In this document: positions 582-26,797 of the stretch, one piece after another
Numbering within the stretch: the stretch's first letter is position 1
Layout of the letters: each line of letters opens with the position of its first letter
Notes under the pieces: model-generated
Databases searched by the model: none
Seen by the model: only the letters and a program-made list of their open reading frames with translations
Told to the model about the DNA's origin: nothing
Source: a virus
IMG/VR virus record: IMGVR_UViG_3300033148_001020
Coordinates: 1-26,797 of that record
Reading direction: 5' to 3' (one strand)
DNA: 26,797 nt
Position numbers and translations under genes: made by a program

Positions 582-1253
582 ATGAAAAATAAAAAGATTT
601 ATGTCGATAAGACATACAGGCTAAAAAGAGAAGCAGCACCACTTACCTTTATGCTGGCTTCTCACAATACCAAAAGAAAACCCCTTCTATATTTTGATGA
701 AGACTCTGGAACAAACCGAGCTCTTCGTTATGCAAGAAACCAAAAGAGTCCGTTTGAAGACGAGCAAGATGGTAATGCCATATTAGAACCTGTAATTTTT
801 GAAGACGGGATGTTACACGTTCCAAAAAACAATCAAGTATTACAAGAGTTTCTATATTATCATCCGTCAAGAGATTCTATTTACGAAGAAGTTAATAATG
901 AAAGAGATGCCGCTGAAGATGTAGAGGTATTAGAGCAAGAGTTGAATGCTCAGATTGTAGCTTCGGAGTTAGAGTTTGATAAAATGCTTTCTGTAGCAAG
1001 AGTATTATTAGGTGGTAGATCAGAGCTTCTTAGCACTTCTGAACTTAAAAGAGATATACTTCTTTTTGCTAAGAGAGATCCTTATACTTTCTTAGAAGTT
1101 GTAAATGATCCAGATCTTGAGTTTGAAGATGAAGTTAGACAGTTCTTTACAGAAAAACTTCTTTCTTTTAGAAACAAGAAAAAAGATGTTTACTTTAACT
1201 TACCTGGAAACAAAACCAAAATGTTAACTATACCATTTGGAGAAGATCCCTAA
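582..1253 (+). CDS. Conserved structural/capsid-associated protein, function unknown
   Basis: A 223-residue acidic protein with no recognisable enzymatic motif. The N-terminal half (about 1-110) is basic then mixed. Residues about 100-135 are rich in Glu and Ala and should form a helix or short coiled coil. The C-terminal third, with a repeated pattern of Asp/Glu and hydrophobic residues, looks helical. It lies immediately downstream of the major capsid gene and its terminator, and its ATG follows an AT-only leader without a Shine-Dalgarno sequence, as is usual in Bacteroidota. Proteins of this style commonly follow the capsid gene in marine Bacteroidota podoviruses. A head decoration, completion or assembly role is inferred from position only. 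Confidence 0.6.
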   Translation: MKNKKIYVDKTYRLKREAAPLTFMLASHNTKRKPLLYFDEDSGTNRALRYARNQKSPFEDEQDGNAILEPVIFEDGMLHVPKNNQVLQEFLYYHPSRDSIYEEVNNERDAAEDVEVLEQELNAQIVASELEFDKMLSVARVLLGGRSELLSTSELKRDILLFAKRDPYTFLEVVNDPDLEFEDEVRQFFTEKLLSFRNKKKDVYFNLPGNKTKMLTIPFGEDP

Positions 1254-3698: not shown

Positions 3699-5087
3699 AT
3701 GCTTATACAAACTAATTTCATCGCTGGTAAAATGAACAAAAGCGTTGATGAACGCTTAGTTCCTGTTGGAGAATATGTAGACGCTCTTAATGTAAGATTG
3801 GGTTCTACAGAGTCTACTGAGATTGGTGCTGTAGAAAATTCAAAAGGAAACACAGCTTTAACATCGATACAGCTTCTTAATCAGGGTGGAAGCATGAATA
3901 ACGCTCGCTGTATTGGAGCATATGAAGATGGTATAAACGAAACAATATATTGGTTTGTTCATAATGAAAACTGTCCATTCTCACCAACAGGTAAAGCGGA
4001 TATGGTTTTATCATACAATACCAATACAGGTTCTTTAACATATCACGTAGTGAGCCAGGATGATGGTAGTGGTAATAACAGAACTACACTAAATTTTGAT
4101 AAAAAATATTTAATTACTGGAGTAAGTAAGATTAATGATTTACTTTTCTTTACAGATGACCTCAACCCTCCAAGATATATAAACGTAACAAGAAATTACG
4201 ATTTACCTTCACCTGTTGATGGTTTTGTAGAAGAGGATATATCTGTTATAGTGAAGCCTCCAGGGTTTGAAACAACTGCTCCTGTAGAGCCTCTTTCAGC
4301 TCCTTTTATAGAATTGATTCCAGAGATCATAGACCCTAACATACCTAACAACGTAACAACAAAAAGTAATTATATAGAAGAAAGGTTTTTATGCTTTGCT
4401 TATAGGTATAGATATGAGGATGGCGGATATAGTGCTACCTCATTATTCACAAACCCTTCTTTTGAGCCAAAAGATTTCGCTTTTAGTTTTGAGACCTTCA
4501 AAAACGAGGGTATGCTAAACAGGTTTAGAAAATTAAAAATCTATGTTAATACAGGATCTAAAAGGGTAAAAGAGTTTCAGATATTATATAAAGAAGCTGG
4601 TAGCAATCAAATATATATTTTAAATAGATATAATAAGGCTGCTTTAGGTATTGCCGATGATGTTGTGTTTGCTTCAGATGAGTTTTCTAACAGTCAAATA
4701 CTTACGGTTTTAGGCTCGGATGAGTTGTTAAGATTATATGACAATGTTCCTAAGTTAGCTAAAGCTCAAACAATACAAGGTAATCGATTGATGTATGGAA
4801 ACTACGTTGATCAATATGATGTTACTAAGGAAGAAGGAGGAGCTACTATAAACATGGACTACACTCTTGAAACCAGAACAGACAATTTTGGTGGAGAGAC
4901 GCTCCCTGGTCCAACAGGTTCTGCCTCAACAAATAATATCGATCCAACTTCAGCTGTAACAGTTACTAATGGAAACGTTACGTTTGACTTGTCATCGGTA
5001 CCAACACCAATTGCAGCGGGAACTGTTTTTAGTTTTTCCCTGCCAATGCAAAATGTATTTTTTCCCTGCCAATGCAAAATGTATTAA
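3699..5087 (+). CDS. Tail nozzle / muzzle-like protein, N-terminal part (frame broken by 26-bp duplication)
   Basis: The 462-codon N-terminal portion of what is almost certainly one large gene. It begins with a segment (residues about 5-37, including NFIAGKMNKSVDERL and GEYVDALNVR) that resembles the start of nozzle or stabilisation proteins capping the podovirus tail tube. The rest is beta-rich with Asn/Thr loops, as in a beta-propeller-like tail protein. The last ~9 residues (FFPCQCKMY) are a frameshift product: they read through the second copy of an exact 26-bp tandem duplication. If one copy is removed, residue 453 onwards continues straight into the 1237-codon frame that follows. The ORF follows the adaptor-like gene by 1 base. 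In crAss-like phages the corresponding muzzle protein is well over 1000 residues, which fits the repaired length of about 1686. Confidence 0.66.
   Translation: MLIQTNFIAGKMNKSVDERLVPVGEYVDALNVRLGSTESTEIGAVENSKGNTALTSIQLLNQGGSMNNARCIGAYEDGINETIYWFVHNENCPFSPTGKADMVLSYNTNTGSLTYHVVSQDDGSGNNRTTLNFDKKYLITGVSKINDLLFFTDDLNPPRYINVTRNYDLPSPVDGFVEEDISVIVKPPGFETTAPVEPLSAPFIELIPEIIDPNIPNNVTTKSNYIEERFLCFAYRYRYEDGGYSATSLFTNPSFEPKDFAFSFETFKNEGMLNRFRKLKIYVNTGSKRVKEFQILYKEAGSNQIYILNRYNKAALGIADDVVFASDEFSNSQILTVLGSDELLRLYDNVPKLAKAQTIQGNRLMYGNYVDQYDVTKEEGGATINMDYTLETRTDNFGGETLPGPTGSASTNNIDPTSAVTVTNGNVTFDLSSVPTPIAAGTVFSFSLPMQNVFFPCQCKMY
5033..5085 (+). repeat. Exact 26-bp tandem duplication that shifts the reading frame
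   Basis: The 26-base unit beginning with TTTTTCCCTGCCAATGC is present twice in direct succession: every base from 5033 to 5059 equals the base 26 positions later, with mismatches just outside. Because 26 is not a multiple of 3, the second copy moves the downstream gene into the -1 frame. Both copies encode FSLPMQNV in the frame of the downstream ORF. A run of six T (5058-5063) sits at the junction of the two copies. Confidence 0.95.
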
Positions 5088-8000
5088 CCGTAGACGCCAG
5101 CCCAGTCCTTCCTGGTCCAGCTGTAGACTTAACACCTATACCTGACTTTGTAATAAGCTTTAGCTTTGGATGCCCTCAGCAGTACGGTACAGTTAATGAC
5201 ATGCTTACTTCCACTGAATTTCAGGCGGCAATTGGAAATGCTGGTAACGTTCAAAATATATTACCATATACAAACCCAGTTCAACCCCTTTGGGATCCAG
5301 TAGCTGCTCCGGGACCTTTATCACCTTTAGATAATGATTTTACTTTAACAGGTGCGTTTAATAATAGTATACCATATTATAGAAATTTAGCAGCTAACCC
5401 AAGCACACAAATATTAGTTAACACATCTACTACAGCTTCCTGTGCGGCTCCTCCTGCTGGGCCTCCAGCTGGTTATTTCCCTAATGTTAATGACCCTGGG
5501 TTTGCTTGTATAGGAGCTAATGAGCCATTTGGGTTAACTGTTGTTGGTAACACCTTTACCTTAACAGCTTTAGCTGCTCAATACTATTTTGATGATTCAT
5601 TATTATTGCCAGCACCAAATACTGGTATACCTCAGCCAACTACAGAAGTAAGTAATCAGTATGATTATTTTGCATTTAATATAGCTGGTTGTAGCGGTGG
5701 TTACACTGAAACTTCGACACAAGGTAGTTTACATAGTCATAGAGATTATGAGGTGGGAATAGTATATATGGATGGCTTTGGAAGATCATCTACGGTTTTA
5801 GCTTCTGAAACAAACAGTTGTTTTATACCAGCGTTTGCTTCTACTAAGAAAAACAGCATTAAGGTTGAGCTTAACAATGTAGCTCCTTATTGGGCTGAAA
5901 AATACAAGTTTGTAATTAAACCAAGCAAGGGTGATTACAATATGATTTACAGTGCTTTGGTGTTTTCACAAACAGGCGGAACACCAAGCTCATCAGCACC
6001 TTTTAACTCAGATCCTGAAAGTTTTTGGTTTAAGTTAGAGGGTGATTCTCAAAATTTAGTTTCAGCTGGGGACACTCTTGTAGTTAAAAGAGATGCCGGA
6101 GGATCAGTTCCTTCATATTCCACAGCAGAGGTTTTAGATAAAGAAGCTGTGTATGCTGGACAGATAGATACAGCAAACCCTCCAGGCACATATATCAGGC
6201 TTAAAGCCAGTGGATGGGAGACAAGAGATCAATCTCTACCTCCTAATGTAAATTCCACAAACACAAGAGTAAATGGCGAGGAGGGGGATTGTGCTTACGA
6301 GCCCTCTAACCCTCGTGTTAATGTGCCAGGAGCAATAACAGCTGGATCCAGCATATCAATAACAGTTAAGACTTCACGTGGTGGTGGTGGCGGAGCTTGT
6401 AATGATAATAATTTAGAATGGTCAAGTGGATTTATTTCAGTCCCTCAAAACTACAATAACATTCATCAAGCTTTACTGGGATTACAGTTTGGTAATATGG
6501 TAAATATTGGAACAGCCAGTGCTGTTGATGATTATAGTGGTATATCTTTTGATGCCACTCTTTATGGGCCTGGCGGTAACGGTTCTACAAATCCACCGAG
6601 TAGCTGTTTTAATGGTATTATATATGTGTATGATGACGGTGCTGGAACTCAAAGTATAAGATGGCAATCTGGTAATCCTCGATGCGATGAGATGATTGCT
6701 ACGTGGCTAAATAGCAACTGGAGAGAAGACGCTACAAATACACTTACAGTTAAAGTTAACTACTCTTCCGGTGTTTTTGCTTTTGAGACAGAGCCTCAAC
6801 TTGCAGACCCAAATCTTTTTTACGATGCTTCTGAGTTTATGGACATTATAGAGCATCCTGTAAGTGGCATTAAGTACCATGCAGCAAGAAGAGTATTTAG
6901 CCCTGCAACAACTTCTTATTCTTTAGCTCCAGGTTCTATAGACCAGGTTTTAAATGCTACAGGTCAAACAACTGTAACGCCATTAGAAACGGTTCTAACT
7001 TTTCAAAACTGTTATGTTTTTGGTAATGGTGTAGAAAGCATGAGAATAGAGGACAGAATTGATGGTAAGTCGTTTAAACTTGGAAACAGAGTTTTAGCTC
7101 CATCTAATCAAGACTTTGTGGAGGCTGATAGATATGCTTCAATGACTTATAGTGGTGTATATATTGACTCAGCTAATAGTAACAATCTAAATGAGTTTAA
7201 TCTTGGATTGGTTAACTATAAAGATTTAGAGTCTACCTTTGGTCCTATAATGAAAATGCATTCTCGTGAGACAGATATACTTGTATTGCAAGAAGACAGA
7301 ATATCATATGTTTTATCAGGAAAGAATGTTGTAACTGACTCTACTGGAGGTGGTGCTATCGCTTCAGTTCCTGAAGTTTTAGGTACACAAGTAGCTCGTA
7401 TTGAAGAATATGGTATAAGCTTTAATCCTGAGAGTTTTGCTCAATGGGGACACCAAACGTATTTTACAGACACGAAAAGAGGAGCTGTTATTCAATTAAG
7501 AGGTGGTACTCGTGGTGAACAATTAACTGTGGTATCTCAACAAGGAATGCGATCTTTCTTTAGAGATCAATTTAATGCTCAGCTTACTACCCAAAAATTA
7601 GGAGCGTATGACCCTTATATGAATGAGTACGTGTTAAGCACTAATAACAATGCTGTTCCAACACCTTCGGTTCCACTACCTTGTGGTCAAACTTTAAGTC
7701 AACAAGGGTCTTCAGTTCCATTGGTTTCTTCTATAGATTTTGGAAGTATTATAGGTACTGTAAACATACCTTACACAATAACTTCTGGTCAAATAACTAT
7801 AAGTGTTGAATGGAATGGTTCGGTGGTAGCAAGTACAACCACGTCTACATCAGGATCTATTTCTTTCAATAAGACATTGGTTAATCCTAATGAGGCTACT
7901 TTAACAGTTACACCTACATCTACAGCTACTTATAATATAACACCTCAATGCCCACCTGAAGTTCCAATAACAGTGGTTCAGGTAGTTGTTAATAGTAACA

Positions 8001-8785
8001 CAAGCGCTGGTGCTACATTACATATAGAGTACGATTGGTCTAACCCAAGTTTTGTGAGTCCATTCCAACAAAACTCTGTACAGCTTAATGGCGTAGGTCC
8101 AACTTCATTCTATCAGGCTCAGACCGGATTTAGATCGCAGGGAGTATTCCCTTATGATGGTGCTTCGGTTAGGTTGAAAACAAGAAAAATACCACCTGAC
8201 ACTTTTGATTTTGATCCAGCTCTTCATAATTTTAAAATATTATCAAGCAATAATCTTTATCAAAATAATACAGCGGATATAAACACTTTACTTGGTTTAG
8301 CAGCTAATGTTACGCCAACAACTCCTGTAGGCGCAACTACATATGAGGCTACTGAAGTAGGTACTCTTAGTGGAGGAACTTTCAATATACCAATTGGAAA
8401 CCAATATTTGTATTTAGTTTGGGATCTAAGAGATATAGGAAACCAATTGCTTTGTTACAGTGCTACATCGGCATCTGACGCTTGTTGCAGTTGTACTACA
8501 GCGTGTAATAAAGCTGACTTCAGTCCAGTTCAACAAAACTTAACTCAAGCATGCTTAACAAATAATGATGCGTTTGGATCAGGTTCAATGTCCTTCAATA
8601 ATAGTGGTAATATACCTGTGGTTGGAGATATTGTATTTAATGATCCAAATAATGTTTGTGATCCAAGTGCTGGTTATCCTTCACCTGGATATTACATTGT
8701 TTCTCAATCAGTACCTGCACCTAATCCTAAAACTTGGGTAGAGATAGGGGCTAACGGAGTAGTAATTAACGCAGGAACCTGTTAA
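5072..8785 (+). CDS. Tail nozzle / muzzle-like protein, C-terminal part
   Basis: A 1237-codon frame, probably not an independent gene. Its ATG is the Met of PMQNV inside the duplicated segment, and the frame is open back to 5033. The protein is beta-rich, with many Gly, Ser, Thr, Asn and Pro residues, as in tail nozzle or fibre proteins. Residues about 830-930 are Ser/Thr-rich and resemble an immunoglobulin-like or fibre repeat. Near the end is a Cys cluster (C1138, C1139, C1141, C1145). The last ~78 residues form a domain with VGDIVF and GANGVVINAGTC that is shared with the next gene. Fused to the 462-codon part it gives about 1686 residues, in the range of crAss-like muzzle proteins. The C-terminal domain may touch the host surface; this is inferred. 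Confidence 0.65.
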   Translation: MQNVLTVDASPVLPGPAVDLTPIPDFVISFSFGCPQQYGTVNDMLTSTEFQAAIGNAGNVQNILPYTNPVQPLWDPVAAPGPLSPLDNDFTLTGAFNNSIPYYRNLAANPSTQILVNTSTTASCAAPPAGPPAGYFPNVNDPGFACIGANEPFGLTVVGNTFTLTALAAQYYFDDSLLLPAPNTGIPQPTTEVSNQYDYFAFNIAGCSGGYTETSTQGSLHSHRDYEVGIVYMDGFGRSSTVLASETNSCFIPAFASTKKNSIKVELNNVAPYWAEKYKFVIKPSKGDYNMIYSALVFSQTGGTPSSSAPFNSDPESFWFKLEGDSQNLVSAGDTLVVKRDAGGSVPSYSTAEVLDKEAVYAGQIDTANPPGTYIRLKASGWETRDQSLPPNVNSTNTRVNGEEGDCAYEPSNPRVNVPGAITAGSSISITVKTSRGGGGGACNDNNLEWSSGFISVPQNYNNIHQALLGLQFGNMVNIGTASAVDDYSGISFDATLYGPGGNGSTNPPSSCFNGIIYVYDDGAGTQSIRWQSGNPRCDEMIATWLNSNWREDATNTLTVKVNYSSGVFAFETEPQLADPNLFYDASEFMDIIEHPVSGIKYHAARRVFSPATTSYSLAPGSIDQVLNATGQTTVTPLETVLTFQNCYVFGNGVESMRIEDRIDGKSFKLGNRVLAPSNQDFVEADRYASMTYSGVYIDSANSNNLNEFNLGLVNYKDLESTFGPIMKMHSRETDILVLQEDRISYVLSGKNVVTDSTGGGAIASVPEVLGTQVARIEEYGISFNPESFAQWGHQTYFTDTKRGAVIQLRGGTRGEQLTVVSQQGMRSFFRDQFNAQLTTQKLGAYDPYMNEYVLSTNNNAVPTPSVPLPCGQTLSQQGSSVPLVSSIDFGSIIGTVNIPYTITSGQITISVEWNGSVVASTTTSTSGSISFNKTLVNPNEATLTVTPTSTATYNITPQCPPEVPITVVQVVVNSNTSAGATLHIEYDWSNPSFVSPFQQNSVQLNGVGPTSFYQAQTGFRSQGVFPYDGASVRLKTRKIPPDTFDFDPALHNFKILSSNNLYQNNTADINTLLGLAANVTPTTPVGATTYEATEVGTLSGGTFNIPIGNQYLYLVWDLRDIGNQLLCYSATSASDACCSCTTACNKADFSPVQQNLTQACLTNNDAFGSGSMSFNNSGNIPVVGDIVFNDPNNVCDPSAGYPSPGYYIVSQSVPAPNPKTWVEIGANGVVINAGTC

Positions 8786-9818: not shown

Positions 9819-10607
9819 ATGGCAGATCCAAAAACATTAACATACGCAGAAGACGTCCAGGGATGGCCTTCTTTTTACTCATACTTAGCAGACTATATGA
9901 TAGGTATGAATGGGTTTTTTTATACTTGGAGTGGAGGAAACTTGTACAGACACAATACCAATAATACCAGAAATAACTATTATGGTCAACAGTACAACTC
10001 TACAATTACCGGGGTTCTTAATATAGAACCAAAGACCATTAAGCTATTTAAGACAATGTCGTATGAAAGCGATGACGCTTGGGCGTGTACTAACTTGTTT
10101 ACCGATCTTGGAGATGGCTCCATGTTGTCCACATATTTTCAACAAAAAGAAGGAGAGTGGTTTACTTTTTTAAGAGAAAACTCCACAACAAGAGATTATA
10201 AAGACAGAAATGTAAATGGTATTGGAGAAGCATCAAATGTTACAGGACCAGCCAATGCTGTGGTAATTACATTCCCTGCAAGTGTTCCTGTAGGAACTAT
10301 TATTAGTGCTGGTGATTATATTTATTTTGGCACAGTGCCTACATATGTCGGTCAAATAGATCCGTTAGTAGGGGTTGTTGACTTTGTAAATAACAGTATA
10401 ACTGTGGATACTACAGTGCCAGAACCAGCTACGGGTAACGGTGGTACAGCTCCTAATATAGGTGATTTTATATTTTATTTTAAAGATGTAGTAGCAGAAT
10501 CACATGGGGCAAGAGGTTACTTTATGCAGTTTACACTTCAAAACACAAACACTCAAGCGGTTGAATTATTTGCAGTTGGCAGCAGTGTAATGAAAAGTTT
10601 TCCATAG
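9819..10607 (+). CDS. Conserved structural protein of Bacteroidota podoviruses
   Basis: A 262-residue protein. The first ~70 residues are aromatic-rich (many Trp, Tyr and Phe, with NLYRHNTNNTRNNYYGQQ) and the rest is beta-rich with Val/Thr/Gly strands. I recall similar proteins encoded in the tail region of Cellulophaga-type and crAss-like phages, but cannot assign a position in the virion. It follows the Cys-rich tail protein by 11 bases with an AT-only spacer, and is most likely co-transcribed with it. No signal peptide or membrane segment is visible. Its stop lies 20 bases before the next ATG, and that gap holds a promoter element. Confidence 0.58.
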   Translation: MADPKTLTYAEDVQGWPSFYSYLADYMIGMNGFFYTWSGGNLYRHNTNNTRNNYYGQQYNSTITGVLNIEPKTIKLFKTMSYESDDAWACTNLFTDLGDGSMLSTYFQQKEGEWFTFLRENSTTRDYKDRNVNGIGEASNVTGPANAVVITFPASVPVGTIISAGDYIYFGTVPTYVGQIDPLVGVVDFVNNSITVDTTVPEPATGNGGTAPNIGDFIFYFKDVVAESHGARGYFMQFTLQNTNTQAVELFAVGSSVMKSFP

Positions 10608-13695: not shown

Positions 13696-16600
13696 ATGGA
13701 CGAAAAGTTAAGAAAAATATATGACCTTTACCTAAAGAAAGGACTCATAACAGAAAAGATAACTTTTGACCAGTGGTCGGCTGCCGATGAAGATCAGCAG
13801 GTAAAACTTTATGACTTAGGTAGAACTAATGGTCTTTTCGATAAAGTTCAGGTAGATCAGTTCAAGACATTGTGGTCAGGTATGACTACAGGAGATCCAA
13901 AAAAAAAAGTCGAATCTCCTGGTACTTCTCAAGAGGAAGTTATGGAATCCAATATACAAGTTCAACAGGAAGATCCGTCCTTATCGGTATCTTCTGGTCA
14001 AGAAGAAGTTCCTGATAGTTTAGCTCAATTCACACCTGATCAATTTACACCTGATCAATTTACACCTCAAGAAGATATTACAATTACAGGTTTAGAGGAG
14101 GTCCCTACCTTTGATTTTGAGGCTGGTAGAAGACGTAGAGGTCAGAAGCAAGACATACAAGAAGCGCAAAGAGGGCAAAGAGGAGCAAAAGGAACTATTG
14201 AAAAAGACACTGGTATTGAAAGATTGTTCGGTAAGAATGAGGTTACTGACTTCTTTGGAGATATTTATAGAGCGGGGGTTAAAGGTTTTCAAACAGGACA
14301 ACAGGTAGATGAAGCCTTAGAATTATTTGGTAAAGGAGGTAAAGTCACCTCTGAAGATGTTCAAGATTATATAAACGCAGTAAATGCGGCAGGTGAATCT
14401 GATTACGTTATGAGTGATGAGATGGCTGATTTTAACGCTGCTTACGAAAAAGCTGGTGGTGGTCTAATTGGTTTCTTAAAAGGAATAGCAGCCTCTCCTA
14501 CTGTTATAAATGAAATAGCTATAACAAGTATTACACAGATGGTAAACCCTGCTACCTTAGCGGCAGCTGGTGCTACTACAGCGGGTTTTACTGCTACTGG
14601 TGCAGCTGGTGGTTCGGCAGCAGGTGGTGTTGGTGCAATACCTGGTGCGATAGCTGGAGCTGTGAGTAGTATTCCTTTTGCTATTGGTGCTGCTGGAGCA
14701 ACCTTAGAGGCTGGTCTTTCTTTCTCAGAATTTTTACAAGAAGAAATATCTGAAAAAGGATTAGATTTTGACGAAGCGGGGATTAGAGCTGTTCTAAACG
14801 ATCCTCAAGCCATGATGAATATTAGAGCTAAGTCAGCAGGTAGAGGTATAGCTATTGGTTTGATTGATAGATATACAGCTGGTCTTGCTGGTAAAGTTAC
14901 AAAAGGCGTTATTAAGAAAGCGGTCAAGGGAGGCAAAGGAAAATTTGCTACTAATGTGAGAGCGTTAGGTGCAGCTACACCTATCGAGGCCGCTGGTGGC
15001 GCTGTCGGTGAAGCTACTGCAAGAGCTATCGTTGGTCAGGATATGGATGCTGCTGAAATTGGTTTTGAAGCTGTAGGTGGTGGTCCTGGAGCTATCATAA
15101 GTGGTGGTAAGGAAATCATTTTTGCTAACAAGGAAGGAACTTATAAAATGGGTCCCGACAAAAAAACTATCTCAAGAGAGGAGATGATCAATATGATCAC
15201 GAACACTGATGATAAAACATTTGCTCAGGCAGATTTAGAAATATCAGGAGACTCATCATTAAAAGAACTTGCTCAAGACAGAAAAGAAAAGCTAAGAAAG
15301 AAACAAGAAAAACAAAAACAACTCGGTAACAACTTAGATAATTTAAGTGAAGAGCAACAACAAGAAGCTTTAGACTTAGAAACAGAATTAGATGAATTAA
15401 AAAATGAAGGTACAAGAAGAGCAGATAACAGAAGGAAAGAAGTAGAACAAAGGCTCGATGATCTTTACTCTCAAAAACCAGAAGCCGCAGCAGGAGAAGA
15501 TGTAGATGTGAGTATGGATGAGGTTTTCGATGAGCTTGGAATAGATACAAGCGATCCGGAAAACATAAGAGGTGTTTCTGCTGAGGATATAGCGGATACT
15601 AAAAAACGATTACAAGAACAAAAACAAAAACAAAATGCCATTCAAGAGTCAAGCACAGCGCAAGTGGATGTACAAGAACAAGCCAGAGATGGCGAAACGG
15701 TGGGAGAAGGAGACGCCCCAGGGGCCACTACCACTGAAGGTGAAGTCCAAGCCGATATTACCCCGACAGAGGAAACGCAAGTAGAGTCAGCCGATTTTGG
15801 AGAACTTATAGACCAAGCTTCCAGCGCACTAAGTGATGTTGGTCAAGGGGTGCGAGGAAGAAACGTAACTAAAACCGAGATCTTTGACGAGACTGTTCAA
15901 GAAAACCCTGACGGAACCGTAGAGGTTGCTTCTTCAATTGATGAAGAGGGTAATACTGTTATGGCTCCTAAAAGAAAAGGGAAAGTAGTATCAGAAAACT
16001 TTACTATTGTAGATCAAACAGAGACGGATAATTACTACAACTCTGATAGATTTAAAAGAGAAAACAATAACATTGATAAAGGCCAACACGAGGTTAATAT
16101 ATTAAACTCAGCATCAAAAGCAATTGCGGCAATATCAAAAGTGTTGCCGGGTTTAAATATAGTTGCTCATAGAAATGAAAACTCTTATAAAGATCACGTT
16201 GATGTTTCCTCTCGTGCGGCATATAAAAGCGGAACTAATACCATACATATTAATATGCCAAAGGCTACTGGTAAAACCATAGCTCATGAGGTGTTTCACG
16301 CTGTATTAAAAGCAAAGCTTGGTACTGAAGTAAATATACAGGATGCCTCTAAAAATATGGTGGATTCTGTTAGAAAAGCTATCGCTAAGAGTAAGACTTT
16401 AACAGCAGATCAAATAATTCAGTTTGAAGAGTATGCGGCTAATTTTGACTCAGATGTAAGAAACGAAGAGTATTTAGCTGAGATTGTAGGTTTCTTAGCT
16501 GATAACTATAGTAAAATTGATACTCCTGAAGTAAAGGGTGCTGTAAGACAATTTATAGAAAAGATAGCAAGTATTCTTGGTTTAGACGTAGATACTTTTA

Positions 16601-19600
16601 CTCAGAGTGATAAAGACACTGTAGACCTTCTTAACACCATAGCTGAAAAAGTAGCAACAGGTGAAGAGATAACTGAAACAGATTTAGCTGCATTAGATCA
16701 AGGTGGTTCTATAAATGTTGGACTTCCTTCTACAATACAAACAACTAAGACAGAAAAAACAGATGTAAATTTTAGCGACACACCACCACCACTTTCTTTT
16801 GTTACCATCAAAGATAAAATCAATATAGATGCTTTGGTAAAAGAGATATCAGAAAAAGGTCAAAAGGTTTGGTTTTGGGTAGCCGACCAGCTGGGTAGGG
16901 GTGAGTATGGTGATGTAGTTATAGGTGATACTCATTACTTAGATGCCGGTCCAAGCTATGCGTTAGATCCATCCAATAAAGAAAAGGGTATAGTGTGGGC
17001 TTCAGGTATGAATAAAACAACTTTAGAAAAAAACATAGCAAACTCTGACTATGTGTTTTTAATAAGCGGTTCGCCTCAAAGAAGTAAACTTTTTAATAGA
17101 AGAGTTTCTCAGTTATTACAAAGAAGAGTTGAGCAGGTTGGAGATTTTAAGCAGTTCAAACAAGAGATTCTTGATTCAAAACCTGTTAAAGCTTTTAGAG
17201 ATATATTAGCTAAATATGATTCATTTGAAGCTTTAATTAACGTTGACAACTCAGATAGGAAAGAATTTTTGTTAGCTATAGAAGCTGAATCAAAAAAGAA
17301 AAACACACCTTTAAAAAAGACATTAGAAAAATTTAATGCGTTTTTAGATTTCGATTCTTTACGTGATGGTTTTTACAAGGAGAATGATTTCAAAATGAAT
17401 GACGTAATGTTAGTTCTGAAGCCATCTTCTGTAGGTGAAAAGTCTAATCACTCAACATACACTAATGATATTATGGGTGAGGTTGTTGGTGTTCCAGATA
17501 AAAAGATTAATGCAGCAGACATTATGACTGGTGCGGCTCGTGAAAAATTAAAAGATATAACACGAAGAGAACGACAAACTCAAGTGGTAGCTCCTTATGG
17601 ATCAGGTGTTAGACAAGTTCAACCTGCATCTAAAAAACCTAAAGTAAAAACAGAGATACCATCCCCATCTAAACAAACCACAAAAGAGTTTACTAAAACA
17701 TTAAAATCAGCATTAAAAGGTAAAGGTCAGTTTGCTCATATGACAGCAGAAAACCCTAACAACAAACCACTATCAGCAAAAGAAAACGCTCAAAGAAATA
17801 AAGAGATGAAGGCTGAATTAAAACAGATGGGGTATGATGTTGTTGAAGTAGATGGGATGTACGACAGATCTGAAAAGTCTTTCTTTGTTCCAGGTATAAC
17901 AGAGGCTGATGCTATAAAGTTAGGTAAAAAATATGGGCAAGAATCTGTTGCTCATAGTAAAGGGATGATATATACAACTGGTAAAAATGCCGGCAAGAGA
18001 AATCCTGTGACAGGAGGTGTTACTATAGATAACACTTTAGAAAATTACTATAGCGAAATAAAAACTAAAGACGGAAAAGTAAGATATAGTGTAGATTATA
18101 ATTTTGATGTTTTAACAGAAGAGACTGGGCCTAAAGTAAAGACAGAAAAGTTTGGTCCGGAATCTAACAATAAAAAATTACAAAACCTTGGGCGTATGTA
18201 TAATATGAACTCTCAAGGATTTGCTCCGGCAAATGTAAACTTAGGAGCTTTAAAACAAGCTGCTAAAAAATTAGGTTTTGGAGTAAAGGCTGCTAAAATT
18301 AGTTATGGCCCACAAGCTGGGAAGGTAACTGGTTACTACTTTACTAAAGGTGGTAGAAAGGTAAATGTTATGCCAGGTATGACTAAGACTGAAGTGTTTG
18401 ATAAAGGAATGAGCACTCAGGATATAATCAAGTTTGGTAGAGACAACAATTTCTCAGACGCTGCTATAAAAGATTATCTTGTAAGGACAAAAGGATTACC
18501 TGTGAAAGAAGTCACAGGTTTATTGTCATTAGATGCTAATTTGTTTTCTCAGATGCCTCCAAGCTTTGGCAACATGAAGGGAGGCGCAAAAGCTGGATTG
18601 CAATTATTTAAAAAAGTTTTAAAGTTTAGCAATAATCTTTCTAAAAAATTATCTCCTGACCAGGTTGTAGAACAAACATTACAGTTCTTAGAGCAACAAC
18701 CTGAATACATAGCTGAGGGTAATAAAACAAAAACAGAGTCTCAACAACAATCTGAAATGATTATAGAGGTTCAAAAATCTTTAGATGCAAAACCAAATAA
18801 AGATACCTCTAAACGTGTAAAGCTTTTGAAAGAAGCTGTTAGAAACAGAAAGAAAGGAGCTAAGGAGTTGTCGGCAGTAAAAAGAAAACTAAGAAACTTT
18901 ATAAGACAAGCTTTACCTAAAGATCTTTATACTAAAGCAGATGTAATGTCTCTTATCAACAAAGTAACAAAAGCAGACGCTACTAATATTGATAACCTAA
19001 CTAACGAGGTTATTGAGATGGTTACTGAAAAGCAAAACAAAAGCTTAGAGGCAAAAATAGATTCAATCCTAAATGGTAAGTACCAGTCTGTAGAATCTGG
19101 TAGACAAAAAGGAAAGAAAATAGACAACCAAACCAGATTACGATTAGAAGCTATCAAAGAGGCTGTTTCTGATGATGCGGCTACAGCTGATGAGGTTGTA
19201 GAAAGTAATCTTAAAATGAATAAAGAGATAAGTGAGTTGACCGCTAAGACAGATCAAACTCCTGATGATAGAAACAGGATAATGGATCTGATGACTATAC
19301 TTAGTATAAATAATGCTAAGCTGAATCAAAACACTGATGTGTTTAAAACAGAGTCATTGTCAAGAGCTGAGAATTTATTATTAGAGATTGTTGGTGAAGG
19401 AAAAGAAAATTTCAAAGCTCAGTTAGCAGAAGATCACAAAAGATATATAGATCAGCAAAACGCAATGTATAAAGCGGTAACAGGAAAGGATATTGACTTT
19501 AGTGATCCAGACTCTGTTAATGAAAAAGTTCAACAAGATATAGCTGATAAAAGATTAAAAGAAAGAGTGAGTAATGGATTCAAAAGAGCTATGTCTTCGG

Positions 19601-21840
19601 TGGGAGATTTTGTTAGTTGGTTTGGATTAAGTCACGAGTCTTTGTCTGGTTTAATGGATATACTTCAAAAAACTCCAGGACAAATCTTTGATGGTCAAAC
19701 AACTAAAGACTTAGTGTATAGGCCTGTAAACAAAGCTACACGTGCTTTTAAGGAAAAGCAGTTAAATAATACGCAGGTCCAGGTAGACAAGATGAAAGAC
19801 ATCTTTGGAAAAAAGTGGAAGAAAGCTGCTCATAAAAACTCTACTCCAAAATCTACCGGAGTGTTTAGAGATCAAGCTGCTGTTGACAAGGCACAAGCGG
19901 AGTACGATGCTAACCCAACAAGAGCTAATAGAAGAAAATTGTCCAAAGTTAAAAAGAGTCAAGAGATTGTTCTTTCGGACAATCAAGTAGGATATTTACA
20001 CAATCAATATAAAGACCCGGCAAATTTACCTTCTTTTGCTAATACGGAGAATGAATACTTTGGTCCAGATCACGAAAGAATAATGACGGAACTTAGAGAT
20101 CAGGTTGATCCAAAAGTTTTGGAATATGCTGATTGGATGGTAGATGAATACTTCCCTTCTCTTTATGACGGATACAACGCTGCATATGAGCAAATATACA
20201 GAACGAGCATGCCTTGGAATCAATATTATGGTGGTAGAATATTCCGTGAAGGGGTAGATCCTCAGCCATTAGATTTACTTGGTGATAAAACAAAAATGAA
20301 TCAACAAGTTGGTTCTGCATCTACTAAGGTTAGGGTTAATAATAAGAAGCCAATAAAACCTATGGATATGATGGACTCTATGACCACATATACCACTGAT
20401 ATGGATTGGTTCTCTTCAATGGGTCCAACCCTACGTGATATAAATAAAATATTCACTAATAAAGAATTAAGAAAAAGTATTGAAGCAAATCATGGTTCTA
20501 AAATTTTAACTTTTATAGATTTTAACCTACAACAATTAGCTTCACGTGGTATAAATACTGCTGCACAAGCTTCGTTTATTAACCAAATAAATAATTTATT
20601 TATATCTACTCGTTTGGGTGCTAACCCAACAATTATGCTTAAGCAGTTAACATCCTTCTTAGCTTATGCTGATAGAGTGGGACCTATTAACTATTCAAAG
20701 TATGCTGCTAAAAACAAAACTGAATTTTTAAAAATATTTAAAGAGATACGAGATAACTCTGTTTATGTTCAAGATAGGATGAGCGGAGACATAAAGCAAA
20801 ACCTTGAAAGTTATTCTGGACAAACAATAGTTGGTTTTGAAGGTGATGCAGGATTAAGTTTCTTCAACAAGATAATGATGGGCTTTGTTAAAGCGGGTGA
20901 TATTGGAGCTATCTATTTAGGTGGTATGCCGGCCTACTCTTATTATAAAGCAGAGTTTAAAAAGAATAATCCTGACGCTACAGAGCAACAAGCTATTGAT
21001 CATGCTATAGAAAGGTTTGAAGAGGACACTAAAGAAACTCAGCAGTCTAAAGATATACAAGATAAAGATTGGTGGCAACAACAAGGGCCGATACTTAGAA
21101 GTTTACAGATGTTTGTTTCTGCACCAAGACAGATGGTAAGACAAGAGTTTGCTGGTTTAAGAATGATGGGTAAAGCATTCAAACAAAAAAACGCTAAAGA
21201 CGGTGTTAAATTATTTGGCCAAGGATTTAGAAAGTTCGCCACATTCCATATGGTATTACCTATGTTCTTCCAATATGTAGCGTTAGGTCTCCCTGGTTTA
21301 ATGAAACCTATTGATGATGAAGACGAAGAAGATTTATTAAGAGCAGCTATTCTTGGTTCATTTAACTCTTTGTTTGCGTTAGGTGATGTTTTAAATATTG
21401 TAGCTGATACTGCTCAAGGTAAGCCTTGGGCTGGAGCTTCAAGAGATTTAGCACCTATATCGTTAATTAAAGAATTAACAGATCTGCAAAAAAGAGCTTC
21501 GAATACAAAAGATAAAGAAAAGAAAGCAGAGCTTACAAGAAGACTTTATTCAAGAGCTGCTGAGATAGGTTTAAAATTAACTACTAAACAGTCCGTTCCA
21601 ATATACAACCTCACTAAGTGGGCTAAGAATGTTGATGAGTTAAGTAAAGGTGAAGATCCAGGTAAAGCATTCCTAAGATTATTCAACTACAGCGAGTATC
21701 AAATAAGCGGTGGTCCAAAAGGTAAGAAAGTTAAACCTGTTAAAAGAGGTGAAGGTGGAGGAAGAGGATCAGGTGATAGAGGTGCTGGTGGCAATAGGGG
21801 AAAAAGTAATAGAGGTGCTGGTGGAAACAGAGGTAAGTAA
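13696..21840 (+). CDS. Giant polyvalent internal virion protein with zinc metallopeptidase motif
   Basis: A 2714-residue protein, by far the largest here and the last virion gene. By residue: 1-65, a small helical module also common at N-termini of such phage proteins; 111-125, three QFTPx repeats; 283-342, an Ala/Gly-rich hydrophobic region; 521-594, a charged coiled coil; about 786-1000, a peptidase-like domain with HEVFH at 864-868 and EEYLAE at 924-929 offering the third zinc ligand; 1035-1279, a compact unknown domain; about 1344-1430, a segment with a DUF3293-like pattern; 1979-2500, a helical region with NPTIMLKQLTSF typical of polyvalent phage proteins; hydrophobic stretches near 2514-2536 and 2552-2575; a basic RG tail, 2674-2714. 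It probably enters the host with the DNA, degrading cell-wall or host proteins. Position and size match the largest T7-type ejection protein, but with a peptidase and no transglycosylase that I can see. Confidence 0.7.
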   Translation: MDEKLRKIYDLYLKKGLITEKITFDQWSAADEDQQVKLYDLGRTNGLFDKVQVDQFKTLWSGMTTGDPKKKVESPGTSQEEVMESNIQVQQEDPSLSVSSGQEEVPDSLAQFTPDQFTPDQFTPQEDITITGLEEVPTFDFEAGRRRRGQKQDIQEAQRGQRGAKGTIEKDTGIERLFGKNEVTDFFGDIYRAGVKGFQTGQQVDEALELFGKGGKVTSEDVQDYINAVNAAGESDYVMSDEMADFNAAYEKAGGGLIGFLKGIAASPTVINEIAITSITQMVNPATLAAAGATTAGFTATGAAGGSAAGGVGAIPGAIAGAVSSIPFAIGAAGATLEAGLSFSEFLQEEISEKGLDFDEAGIRAVLNDPQAMMNIRAKSAGRGIAIGLIDRYTAGLAGKVTKGVIKKAVKGGKGKFATNVRALGAATPIEAAGGAVGEATARAIVGQDMDAAEIGFEAVGGGPGAIISGGKEIIFANKEGTYKMGPDKKTISREEMINMITNTDDKTFAQADLEISGDSSLKELAQDRKEKLRKKQEKQKQLGNNLDNLSEEQQQEALDLETELDELKNEGTRRADNRRKEVEQRLDDLYSQKPEAAAGEDVDVSMDEVFDELGIDTSDPENIRGVSAEDIADTKKRLQEQKQKQNAIQESSTAQVDVQEQARDGETVGEGDAPGATTTEGEVQADITPTEETQVESADFGELIDQASSALSDVGQGVRGRNVTKTEIFDETVQENPDGTVEVASSIDEEGNTVMAPKRKGKVVSENFTIVDQTETDNYYNSDRFKRENNNIDKGQHEVNILNSASKAIAAISKVLPGLNIVAHRNENSYKDHVDVSSRAAYKSGTNTIHINMPKATGKTIAHEVFHAVLKAKLGTEVNIQDASKNMVDSVRKAIAKSKTLTADQIIQFEEYAANFDSDVRNEEYLAEIVGFLADNYSKIDTPEVKGAVRQFIEKIASILGLDVDTFTQSDKDTVDLLNTIAEKVATGEEITETDLAALDQGGSINVGLPSTIQTTKTEKTDVNFSDTPPPLSFVTIKDKINIDALVKEISEKGQKVWFWVADQLGRGEYGDVVIGDTHYLDAGPSYALDPSNKEKGIVWASGMNKTTLEKNIANSDYVFLISGSPQRSKLFNRRVSQLLQRRVEQVGDFKQFKQEILDSKPVKAFRDILAKYDSFEALINVDNSDRKEFLLAIEAESKKKNTPLKKTLEKFNAFLDFDSLRDGFYKENDFKMNDVMLVLKPSSVGEKSNHSTYTNDIMGEVVGVPDKKINAADIMTGAAREKLKDITRRERQTQVVAPYGSGVRQVQPASKKPKVKTEIPSPSKQTTKEFTKTLKSALKGKGQFAHMTAENPNNKPLSAKENAQRNKEMKAELKQMGYDVVEVDGMYDRSEKSFFVPGITEADAIKLGKKYGQESVAHSKGMIYTTGKNAGKRNPVTGGVTIDNTLENYYSEIKTKDGKVRYSVDYNFDVLTEETGPKVKTEKFGPESNNKKLQNLGRMYNMNSQGFAPANVNLGALKQAAKKLGFGVKAAKISYGPQAGKVTGYYFTKGGRKVNVMPGMTKTEVFDKGMSTQDIIKFGRDNNFSDAAIKDYLVRTKGLPVKEVTGLLSLDANLFSQMPPSFGNMKGGAKAGLQLFKKVLKFSNNLSKKLSPDQVVEQTLQFLEQQPEYIAEGNKTKTESQQQSEMIIEVQKSLDAKPNKDTSKRVKLLKEAVRNRKKGAKELSAVKRKLRNFIRQALPKDLYTKADVMSLINKVTKADATNIDNLTNEVIEMVTEKQNKSLEAKIDSILNGKYQSVESGRQKGKKIDNQTRLRLEAIKEAVSDDAATADEVVESNLKMNKEISELTAKTDQTPDDRNRIMDLMTILSINNAKLNQNTDVFKTESLSRAENLLLEIVGEGKENFKAQLAEDHKRYIDQQNAMYKAVTGKDIDFSDPDSVNEKVQQDIADKRLKERVSNGFKRAMSSVGDFVSWFGLSHESLSGLMDILQKTPGQIFDGQTTKDLVYRPVNKATRAFKEKQLNNTQVQVDKMKDIFGKKWKKAAHKNSTPKSTGVFRDQAAVDKAQAEYDANPTRANRRKLSKVKKSQEIVLSDNQVGYLHNQYKDPANLPSFANTENEYFGPDHERIMTELRDQVDPKVLEYADWMVDEYFPSLYDGYNAAYEQIYRTSMPWNQYYGGRIFREGVDPQPLDLLGDKTKMNQQVGSASTKVRVNNKKPIKPMDMMDSMTTYTTDMDWFSSMGPTLRDINKIFTNKELRKSIEANHGSKILTFIDFNLQQLASRGINTAAQASFINQINNLFISTRLGANPTIMLKQLTSFLAYADRVGPINYSKYAAKNKTEFLKIFKEIRDNSVYVQDRMSGDIKQNLESYSGQTIVGFEGDAGLSFFNKIMMGFVKAGDIGAIYLGGMPAYSYYKAEFKKNNPDATEQQAIDHAIERFEEDTKETQQSKDIQDKDWWQQQGPILRSLQMFVSAPRQMVRQEFAGLRMMGKAFKQKNAKDGVKLFGQGFRKFATFHMVLPMFFQYVALGLPGLMKPIDDEDEEDLLRAAILGSFNSLFALGDVLNIVADTAQGKPWAGASRDLAPISLIKELTDLQKRASNTKDKEKKAELTRRLYSRAAEIGLKLTTKQSVPIYNLTKWAKNVDELSKGEDPGKAFLRLFNYSEYQISGGPKGKKVKPVKRGEGGGRGSGDRGAGGNRGKSNRGAGGNRGK
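14026..14070 (+). repeat. Three 15-bp in-frame tandem repeats (QFTPD/QFTPD/QFTPQ)
   Basis: Three consecutive 15-base units (14026-14040, 14041-14055, 14056-14070), nearly identical, encode QFTPD, QFTPD and QFTPQ in the giant protein. They lie in a Pro/Gln/Ser-rich acidic linker between the N-terminal module and the first hydrophobic region, and probably vary in copy number by slippage without harming the frame. Confidence 0.9.
21775..21837 (+). repeat. 33-bp tandem repeat encoding the Arg/Gly C-terminal tail
   Basis: Two in-frame copies (21775-21807, and 21808-21837 cut short by the stop) encode DRGAGGNRGKS and NRGAGGNRGK at the very end of the 2714-residue protein. They follow a Gly/Arg/Lys-rich stretch. 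The result is a strongly basic flexible tail, fit to bind DNA or a negatively charged partner. Confidence 0.88.
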
Positions 21841-22161
21841 TTAAAAATTCTTATCAAAGTTTTCTCTTTCAACCTCAAGCTTATAATATAAGAATGCGTG
21901 GAACCCATTGATGTGAGAGTCAGTGGGAAAGAAATACTTCCAACCTTTTGACATTCCTCTGTTTATATAATAACAAAAAGCCAAGCCAACCTTACCAGTA
22001 TTCTTTTTAAATCTAACCACTGCTGTGTGGTCTGATGTTGGTATAACTTCTTGAACATGAAATGTTTCTTTATTTGAATTACCTTCCCTATCTGTTCTTG
22101 AGTATCTCAAAGCTAACTTTCCTGCAAACTCATTCAGTTCTATCGCTATCTCTTTTTTCAT
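21841..22161 (-). CDS. Hypothetical protein at the end of the replication operon
   Basis: A 106-residue protein with a helical start (KKEIAIELNEFAGKLALRY), a beta-rich middle with charged strands, and an aromatic-rich second half (FCYYINR, WKYFF, FHAFLYYK). I do not recognise a family. Its start overlaps the end of the HNH gene by 32 bases, so the two are translated from the same leftward message. Its stop codon is directly next to the stop of the giant virion gene on the other strand, with no bases between. Small proteins like this at the 3' end of a phage early operon are often dispensable host-takeover factors, but nothing here shows that. Confidence 0.6.
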   Translation of the reverse strand: MKKEIAIELNEFAGKLALRYSRTDREGNSNKETFHVQEVIPTSDHTAVVRFKKNTGKVGLAFCYYINRGMSKGWKYFFPTDSHINGFHAFLYYKLEVERENFDKNF

Positions 22162-22498
22162 TTCTTCTGTTATAAGTTACTATTCGGTGACAGTTAGCAC
22201 ACCTTATCTCACATTTTTCAATCTCTTTTTGTATTTTTTTTATTGAGTACGCTTGTCTCGCTAAGTCAGAAACATTACCAAATTTATCACCTCTGACGTG
22301 ATCAAAGTCTAAAACAATAGGATTGTTTTCCCCACAATCAATACACCCGCTTTCATTTTTAACAGATAAGATGTAGTCCTTGTTTCGTTTTATTCTTACT
22401 TTATTACTCTCTCTTGATCGAGCTATTATCTTTTTTTTATGTTTTTGATAATGTCTCTTTTGAGCTTTCTTTTGGTCCTCTGGGTTTTTATAGGCCAT
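22130..22498 (-). CDS. HNH endonuclease
   Basis: A 122-residue protein. The first ~45 residues are very basic (KKAQKRHYQKHKKKI and following Arg/Lys), a DNA-binding arm. A zinc-bound HNH fold follows: Cys52 and Cys55 (GCIDC), then Asp66-His67 (LDFDHVRG), then Cys100 and Cys103 around CANCH with Asn102 and His104, and Asn110 in VTYNRR. All elements of the beta-beta-alpha-metal active site are present, so it should be an active nickase or endonuclease. Free-standing HNH genes in phages are usually homing endonucleases; here it lies right after the tRNA gene and interrupts an otherwise compact replication operon. A role in packaging is less likely, since it is far from the terminase and on the other strand. 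Confidence 0.85.
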   Translation of the reverse strand: MAYKNPEDQKKAQKRHYQKHKKKIIARSRESNKVRIKRNKDYILSVKNESGCIDCGENNPIVLDFDHVRGDKFGNVSDLARQAYSIKKIQKEIEKCEIRCANCHRIVTYNRRNEKRDSDRTE

Positions 22499-22532
22499 AT
22501 TACTACTATGTTTGGCATACTGTAAAATTTAG

Positions 22533-22606
22533 TGATCAAGGAAGGACTCGAACCTTCAACCTACAGCTTAGAAGGCTGTTGCTCTATCCAGTTGAGCTAC
22601 TCGACC
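22533..22606 (-). tRNA. tRNA-Arg (anticodon UCU)
   Basis: Reading the minus strand from 22606: a 7-bp acceptor stem (GGTCGAG with CTTGATC, two G-U pairs), D-arm GCTC/GAGC, anticodon stem ACAGC/GCTGT with loop CTTCTAA, so anticodon TCT (decodes AGA), a 5-base variable loop, and T-arm GAAGG/CCTTC with TTCGAGT. The discriminator is A and the CCA end is not encoded. Total length 74. AGA is the dominant Arg codon in the genes of this window, so the tRNA probably supports phage translation. It lies 3 bases after the stop of the 62-aa gene and 34 bases before the HNH gene, and must be cut from the operon transcript. Confidence 0.95.
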
Positions 22607-23848: not shown

Positions 23849-25096
23849 TTACAAAGTTAATAAATCTCTTTTGAAATGTTTAAGTGTGTAGTCTTTCTTC
23901 TTAATAACCGCTTTGTATATTTCTTTTTCTATACCGTCTTTACTAAAAACCCAGTACACATCATTCTTTAATCTATCTTTAGTTGTCATTCTATCTCTTG
24001 ACTGCCAGTAGCTTGTAGCACTGAAATCTATATTGTAGTATACAAGAGCATCAGCTTTTCTCAAACTGATACCTTCACGCCCACTAACAATCTGTAGAGC
24101 AATGTCTTTATCTGTGGTATTAAAACACTCAAGGTCTTGGCAAATATCTTCTCCAAAAACATTTTTGATTGCATTAAGTTCTTCTTTGAACTTATAAAAT
24201 ATACCTATCTTTTTACCTGCAAACTTTTCTTTAATAAAGTGTGCTTTACTATAATCAAGCACCATAGAGTTACCACTCTCAAACTTGATTGTGCCACTAC
24301 ATAACTGATGTACCTTAGTCATAAGTTTAACAGATGTATCAGCAAGTATAACCTCGTTCTCACCTTCAATAACAAGATCCTTCTTTAGTTTCTTGATGAG
24401 AATAGAAGTATCTTTTTCCATCTCCACCTCCAAAACATGCTCTTGAGTATCAACCACAAAGCCAGCATCCTTTTGACTAAACCTTATTGTATATGGTGCC
24501 ATTTCTTTTATAATCTTTTCAGAACCACGTGAGTAATCATTGATATACATACCACCAACTTTTAGTTTTGTCACGTTAATATATTCGTGAGCAAACTTAT
24601 AAAAGCTTTTGTGTTTTCTAAAAGGATTATTTGGCAATGCATAAACTTGATGATACATTTGGGAGTAAGCTTCCGGAGTAGGTGTACCACTTAAAAGTAT
24701 TACGTATGGGTTGGACCAAAATACAAACTCTTTAAACTTCTTTGCTCTACCACTTGGCTTTGGGTATGCTCCCATTCCGTGTGCCTCATCAGCTATTACT
24801 ACATCCCATCCTTTCTGTGGAAGTTTATGTAAAGATTCGTAGTTGATCACCGTTAGGTTGAAGTCTGGGTTATAAGCCTTATAATCATCCTCGATACTTG
24901 ATATTGCTTTCTTTTTTGTGATAAACAACACTTCTTGTATTCCATCATAAATATCATACAGCTCTTGGCATATACCTAAACTTGTAAGTGTTTTGCCGGT
25001 TCTAACCTCCATAGCTAAGTAGACAAACTTATGTTTGAATAGTATCTCTGTGCCAGTCTTTATTATGTCTTTTTGATAATCTCTAAACTCTATCAT
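23849..25096 (-). CDS. SF2 (SNF2-like) DNA helicase/translocase
   Basis: A helicase of about 415 residues, counted from the Met at 25096. Motifs in order: a Q-type start (FRDYQKD, 4-10), Walker A EVRTGKT (30-36), DEAH box (103-106), motif III SGTPT (136-140), motif V GREGISL (339-345) and motif VI QSRDRM (365-370). This is the full set for ATP-driven movement on DNA. I chose 25096 over the longer start at 25138 because it makes an ATGA overlap with the upstream stop codon and places the first domain at the usual distance from the N-terminus; the longer form would add 14 residues and a 46-base overlap. It precedes the VRR-NUC gene. It is likely to be a replication or recombination translocase. 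Confidence 0.87.
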   Translation of the reverse strand: MIEFRDYQKDIIKTGTEILFKHKFVYLAMEVRTGKTLTSLGICQELYDIYDGIQEVLFITKKKAISSIEDDYKAYNPDFNLTVINYESLHKLPQKGWDVVIADEAHGMGAYPKPSGRAKKFKEFVFWSNPYVILLSGTPTPEAYSQMYHQVYALPNNPFRKHKSFYKFAHEYINVTKLKVGGMYINDYSRGSEKIIKEMAPYTIRFSQKDAGFVVDTQEHVLEVEMEKDTSILIKKLKKDLVIEGENEVILADTSVKLMTKVHQLCSGTIKFESGNSMVLDYSKAHFIKEKFAGKKIGIFYKFKEELNAIKNVFGEDICQDLECFNTTDKDIALQIVSGREGISLRKADALVYYNIDFSATSYWQSRDRMTTKDRLKNDVYWVFSKDGIEKEIYKAVIKKKDYTLKHFKRDLLTL

Positions 25097-26797
25097 ATCA
25101 AAGAAGTTTGTGTTACGTTTTGACAAAACTCTATCCATTTACCAGTCTTATCTCTTCCTTCAATAGGTTTAGATTTGTACTTGTATATAGAGTAAGAATC
25201 TATCCACTTATAAAACCTTTGTCTTGATATAGTCATTCTTGCTTTCGGTCCGTAATCCGGATACTCATCTATGAAATCAAAGTAAAGATCGTTTCTAAGA
25301 ATCTTAGTGTTAGAAACTAATTTGTTATTCTCTTTACCATCCAATAGTCCACACCACTCAACAAACTCGTGAGAAGTTTCAGCAGACAATCTTCTAAGTT
25401 CAAGATTTACAAATGTACTTTTTAGTAATCCATTTTCTAAATACAACTGCAAACAACTAATCATAAAGTTATCAAACTGGCACCACTCTTCATCATCCCA
25501 TTCCCCAAAGAAATGTTTACCAAACTCCACTAACGGAGTAAACTCTTTAGTGTAATGCTGAGCAAGTTCTAACTCCCACTTTCTTCTTTCAAAAGAACTA
25601 CCCTTGCCACGAATAGCATAGTTGGTAGTGATAGCAATCTTAGGAGACTTACTAAATGGTATCTTAATAGCATCTTTGTTTTTCTTTTCAAGTGTTAAGC
25701 CTTCTGTTACCACAGAGAATAATCTTTCAAAGTCGAAATACTTTTTCACATCATCAAAACAAAGTAGTTGTGTATCGGCTGATACTAATTGGTAAGCAAA
25801 CGATCTTTCAAAGTTAAATGACTTGCCATCTATAACTACTAATTTTTTCATTTGTGATAGACCTTTCATAAATAAACCCTTACCAGTACCTCCTTCCGGA
25901 TTGTCTGATATTACCTCATCATTTAATATAACAGCCGGGCAATACGATAAGTTCTTGTATCCGTGCATCATATACCCAATAGTTGAATACATAGAGTTTA
26001 TTCTCTCATCAGTCCCACCTGCAATGTTATTTACAAATACTTTGAAGTCACATTCATTTACCTTGCATATTGTAAAATCTCTATCTATTACGTGATCCTT
26101 CCAAACATAACCTCCAAGATCAATGTAGTCTATAGGTTTTACCTCTGTGCTTGTAATTTTTACTGCACAATTTCTGTAATATAAATAAGAAGTTGATGAG
26201 GTATCCTCTATAAAGAACACATCAATAGAAGACAGCAGGGTTAAAAACTCTTCTCTAAAATATCTCGTGTGTTCTGCAAAGTAATTGTATATACTTATAT
26301 CATCCTCATCTATCAAGTAGTTTAATATAAAATCTTTTATTTCTTTTTCTGATGTATGATCAATTAAGTTATTGGTTACTCTTACAAAAACATAGTTCTT
26401 ACTACCTTGTGGGTTAAACTTATAGAACCCATGCTCCTCCAAAAACTGCTTGAAAGCTATGTGTATAATTTTTATTACACCCTTCTCAGACTTAGTCCAA
26501 AACTTTTGTTTAGCATTCTCATCCTCTATTCTTTCAAGTACACTATCTACATTATCTACATCAAACTTCTCCTCCTCCAACTGATACTTGATTTCTTTTT
26601 TAGATACACCTCTTCTAAACTTATTCTTTATTTGGTTTACCTTATCCTCATCCTCGTAATACTTGGTTCCAAAGTTTTGTTTTTGTGCGTAGGCTGACTC
26701 AATAGTTCTTTTGATCTCGTAGTCAGGAAAGTCTTTTGTAGCAAAGCTTGACATCACATACTCTGCAAGAGTTTGGTTTACTCCAAAGTCATTGAAG
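25093..26797 (-). CDS. Primase-helicase, SF3/D5-type (5' end off the window)
   Basis: About 568 codons are visible. The frame is open through the window edge, past the GTG at 26757 (upstream residues include VNQTLAEY), so the start lies outside. Counting from that GTG: residues 8-36 (DFPDYEIKRTIESAY, then FGTKYYEDE) look like the end of a primase C-terminal region. An SF3-type ATPase follows, with Walker A PEGGTGKG (287-294), Walker B LLCFDDV (331-337), the KIAITTNY sensor (373-380, Asn379) and Arg391/Arg392 as arginine finger candidates. The C-terminal ~80 residues look like a winged helix. It would unwind DNA at the fork and prime synthesis if the missing part is a primase. The stop overlaps the helicase start as ATGA. 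Confidence 0.85.
   Translation of the reverse strand, partial: FNDFGVNQTLAEYVMSSFATKDFPDYEIKRTIESAYAQKQNFGTKYYEDEDKVNQIKNKFRRGVSKKEIKYQLEEEKFDVDNVDSVLERIEDENAKQKFWTKSEKGVIKIIHIAFKQFLEEHGFYKFNPQGSKNYVFVRVTNNLIDHTSEKEIKDFILNYLIDEDDISIYNYFAEHTRYFREEFLTLLSSIDVFFIEDTSSTSYLYYRNCAVKITSTEVKPIDYIDLGGYVWKDHVIDRDFTICKVNECDFKVFVNNIAGGTDERINSMYSTIGYMMHGYKNLSYCPAVILNDEVISDNPEGGTGKGLFMKGLSQMKKLVVIDGKSFNFERSFAYQLVSADTQLLCFDDVKKYFDFERLFSVVTEGLTLEKKNKDAIKIPFSKSPKIAITTNYAIRGKGSSFERRKWELELAQHYTKEFTPLVEFGKHFFGEWDDEEWCQFDNFMISCLQLYLENGLLKSTFVNLELRRLSAETSHEFVEWCGLLDGKENNKLVSNTKILRNDLYFDFIDEYPDYGPKARMTISRQRFYKWIDSYSIYKYKSKPIEGRDKTGKWIEFCQNVTQTSLI

Follow-up and report, generated by a model that had tools for sequence, protein, structure and literature searches.

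A 26-bp tandem duplication splitting a crAss-like muzzle gene is probably an error of one metagenomic phage contig

The muzzle fold comprises a ring-joining domain, a beta-propeller, the domains IG1 and IG2 and a crass domain, arranged as a hexamer. At its tail tip, PhicrAss001 carries a hexameric muzzle complex of ~1 MDa (PMC10172136). The gene analyzed here lies in the window, by which we mean the whole stretch of 26,797 bp, an IMG/VR metagenomic virus record classed as linear. Like gp44 of PhicrAss001 and the families Pfam PF25731 and PHROG 14478, the window muzzle is a long virion protein whose gene adjoins virion genes. With ~1686 aa it is longer than the 1224-position Pfam model PF25731 and, unlike PhicrAss001 gp44 and the muzzle family, its frame is interrupted by the doubling of 26 bp, and this in the window contig only. 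The nearest annotated phages are distant, namely one uncultured Caudoviricetes record (37.8% protein identity), Flavobacterium elemo phages (35%) and Cellulophaga phi19:3 and others (31%). Homologues of the muzzle are found as structural proteins of the Cellulophaga phages phi19:3, phi18:3, phi46:3 and phi13:2, of the Flavobacterium elemo phages and of the Maribacter phage Panino; these share ~31–35% identity over parts of the second muzzle half, and among the matches listed none of these distant proteins reaches the duplication site.

For comparison two contigs from two metagenomes were used: IMGVR_UViG_3300033144_002802 (L083), which is 98.7% identical to the window over 12.9 kb, and IMGVR_UViG_3300033388_005149 (L082), which is 98.1% identical over 8.8 kb. 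Both are nearly the same virus as the window. The relevant features of the window are as follows.

1249..1253, plus strand: second private blunt join; 58 bp of L082 and L083 are missing in the window
3699..5087, plus strand: N-terminal muzzle part, 462 aa, ended early by the frameshift (PHROG 14478; Pfam crAss_MUZ)
5033..5058, plus strand: copy 1 of the 26-bp unit, TTTTTCCCTGCCAATGCAAAATGTAT; the aligner places here 26 extra bases that are absent from L082 and L083
5059..5085, plus strand: copy 2 of the unit plus one more matching base (27-nt match, 1-nt junction homology)
5072..8785, plus strand: remainder of the muzzle gene, 1237 aa, in the post-duplication frame (PHROG 14478)

A preliminary description of this DNA had reported an exact 26-bp tandem duplication at 5033–5085 that splits a giant tail gene. 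The repeat was confirmed: positions 5033–5059 are identical to 5059–5085, an exact 27-nt match with a period of 26. As only ~2e-10 such matches are expected by chance from the base composition, the doubling represents one event, which affected either the DNA itself or its assembly. The TAA stop of ORF 3699–5087 (5085–5087) straddles the end of copy 2, and ORF 5072–8785 opens at an internal ATG within the same copy. After subtraction of one copy the muzzle gene measures 5061 nt, which is divisible by 3 and corresponds to ~1686 codons, so that the proposed repair to a single frame was borne out.

Profile searches supported the claim that the 462- and the 1237-codon frames are one gene. ORF 3699–5087 matched PHROG 14478 at profile positions 2–375 (E 3.6e-92) and ORF 5072–8785 matched it at positions 518–1362 (E 5.4e-115); as these positions are consecutive, the two frames are evidently two parts of one gene. 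Furthermore, Pfam PF25731 (crAss_MUZ) scored 40 bits against the L083 muzzle and 31.6 bits against the first muzzle half of the window, both above the cut-off of 27. These matches place the protein within the muzzle family, and on their basis the split gene is predicted to code for a crAss-like muzzle (tail-tip) protein. The earlier term "tail gene" was therefore right and can be sharpened accordingly, PF25731 matching the N-terminal part. What the window muzzle lacks is the continuity of the gene, a failure private to the window contig. No PDB chain was matched in sequence by the muzzle of the intact relative or by a profile of 12 sequences, and the predicted model of a 341-residue fragment of the L083 muzzle had a mean pLDDT of 65.6. 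Downstream of the muzzle gene, a separate 262-aa ORF (9819–10607) matches the crAss muzzle C-terminal domain PF25729 (E 1.2e-11).

In both near relatives the contig sequence carries a single copy of the repeat unit, two copies being present in the window contig only. A single open frame encodes the muzzle in both, with 1689 codons in L083 and, up to the contig end, 1664 codons in L082. The preliminary description had proposed a search for homologues with the same two ORFs; this search unveiled a single muzzle ORF in 76 of the 78 full-length rows, several of which are near-duplicates of one another, leaving fewer independent cases. The exceptions were the window itself and another IMG/VR contig (L052), which carries an in-frame stop inside its muzzle gene (L052:4673-4675). 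A 24-mer spanning the duplication junction had no match in viral_contigs and genome_contigs (IMG/VR and GTDB genomes), sets that may omit the records closest to the window. The duplication is private to the window contig.

The lengths of the other indels follow a different pattern. Between the window and its near relatives the remaining muzzle indels (+6 and −9) are in frame, and ORF 1725–2771 contains one indel of 3. In a survey of perfect tandem duplications with periods of 12–400 over 173 sequences including the window (2.12 Mb in all), six others were found, with periods of 15, 15, 18, 18, 18 and 24, all divisible by 3; the 26-bp duplication has the sole period that is not. Thus, the duplication does not resemble evolution. 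Downstream of the break, 19 synonymous and 14 non-synonymous codon changes separate the window from L083, as would be expected of a frame still under selection.

A base-by-base screen for joins, which covered the window up to 12.8 kb, revealed a second lesion at 1249|1250. There, both near relatives contain 58 bp that the window has lost, and its ORF 582–1253 is thereby shortened from 248 to 223 aa; in relatives the lost C-terminal tail, YHVVATYLKTDEGVDIYKGLIKKIK, can still be recognised at 52–60% identity. The loss shows no junction homology, compared with 1 nt for the duplication, and a 25-mer across the deletion junction had no match elsewhere in viral_contigs. Two joins separated by 3.8 kb are consequently found in the window contig, both of them private, blunt and frame-breaking, and the 58-bp loss is probably a second misjoin. 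Outside the two joins, most differences between the window and L083 are substitutions clustered in the muzzle gene. For the right half of the window, searches for near-identical relatives turned up only sequences with ~81% protein identity for ORF 25093–26757 and with 32–48% for the start of ORF 13696–21840. The minus-strand genes beyond 12.8 kb look colinear with relatives.

Among the three explanations offered in the preliminary description (a false join by the assembler, a disabling mutation, or a tolerated change rescued by slippage or acting as a switch), the false join turned out to be the best supported. We estimate a probability of about three in four that the 26-bp duplication arose as an error in the metagenomic contig, presumably during assembly, and is not a feature of the phage. 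The private nature of the duplication, the single copy and single frame in the relatives and the second private join 3.8 kb away all point in this direction, and two such joins within 4 kb make wrongly abutted assembly pieces the best explanation. Two pieces whose ends truly overlap by 27 nt may have been abutted without collapsing the overlap; this would double the sequence and break the frame of a normal single-ORF muzzle gene. The 58-bp loss at 1249|1250 would be a like fault with a gap instead of an overlap. In analogy to the present joins, artefacts of metagenomic assembly such as uncollapsed overlaps and misjoins are private, blunt and frame-breaking, with lengths unrelated to 3. On the other hand, such a join is not normally made by a k-mer assembler with k > 27, unless a chimeric read or a step of scaffolding or gap filling is involved, and neither join in the window is marked by N letters. 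Near-identical copies, even from the window's own sample, may also be absent from the searches. A literature search on whether metagenomic misjoins of this type have been described under a name yielded nothing usable. As a caution, the 462-aa, 1237-aa and shortened 223-aa gene models should not enter databases as real proteins. Furthermore, such misjoins can be flagged simply by looking for perfect tandem duplications whose period is no multiple of 3 and which occur in one contig but not in its near-identical counterparts.

The disabling mutation, as the leading alternative, is unlikely but keeps an appreciable share of the probability. It would be a real, recent tandem duplication that truncates the muzzle, in a genome that is defective or in the minority and was sampled by chance at low coverage. 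Replication does generate short tandem duplications, the 1-nt junction homology is compatible with such an origin, and the other genes within 1–12.8 kb are open and match L083. However, the muzzle is an essential-looking tail-tip hexamer encoded in one frame in nearly all relatives (PMC10172136), and a consensus contig is expected to represent the majority form. For this reading, the other frame-breaking join, less than 4 kb away, would have to be an independent real change as well. Should the duplication nevertheless exist in the phage, the muzzle would provide a rare example of a crAss-like tail-tip gene that is broken or can be switched.

We consider it very improbable that the phage tolerates the duplication through −1 slippage on the T6 run, or that the muzzle gene contains a switch based on phase variation or programmed recoding. 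The T6 run at 5058–5063 is present, the earlier arithmetic that a −1 shift there restores the frame with 9 extra residues is correct, and a P-site UUU can re-pair with UUU. However, the zero-frame codons GTA TTT TTT CCC (A TTT TTT C) do not form an X_XXY_YYZ slippery heptamer, and the downstream RNA offers no stimulatory structure (MFE −17.3 versus a shuffled mean of −17.95, z 0.22). The repeat site is conserved in no relative, being absent from L082 and L083, and relatives have one frame. In the predicted model the 9-residue insertion would sit in a beta strand (model residues 80–95; residues 81–90 with pLDDT 93), and the corresponding columns showed no length change in 19 aligned muzzle proteins. 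Slippage, phase variation and recoding are hence left without support. Still less credence can be given to a viable phage that uses the site as a reversible on/off or length switch, with either a muzzle 9 residues longer by T6 slippage or a two-chain muzzle.

Least probable of all, to the point of being negligible, are two genuine genes with the second begun at ATG 5072 by re-initiation: the 16-nt stop/start overlap is a layout usable for this process, but in relatives one ORF spans the site, the two halves match successive stretches of PHROG 14478, and ATG 5072, not credible as a native start, is without the A/T-rich leader present before most other genes of the window, which makes a native second gene unlikely.

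Several further observations were made in the window. The second muzzle half (5587–6771 and 8474–8593) is a hotspot of divergence among otherwise near-identical contigs. It holds 45 of the 65 substitutions between the window and L083 over 12.8 kb, in tight clusters and together with the in-frame indels of 6 and 9, and perhaps reflects selection acting on host contact, or recombination. These clusters seem unlikely to stem from a diversity-generating retroelement, since by eye the changes are not limited to A. ORF 13696–21840 encodes 2714 aa with a DUF3293 match at residues 1350–1418 and contains an in-frame 15-bp repeat (FTPDQ, ~3 copies) at 14025–14067. A tRNA-Arg (tct) lies on the minus strand at 22532–22606 beside the HNH-endonuclease-like ORF 22130–22498.
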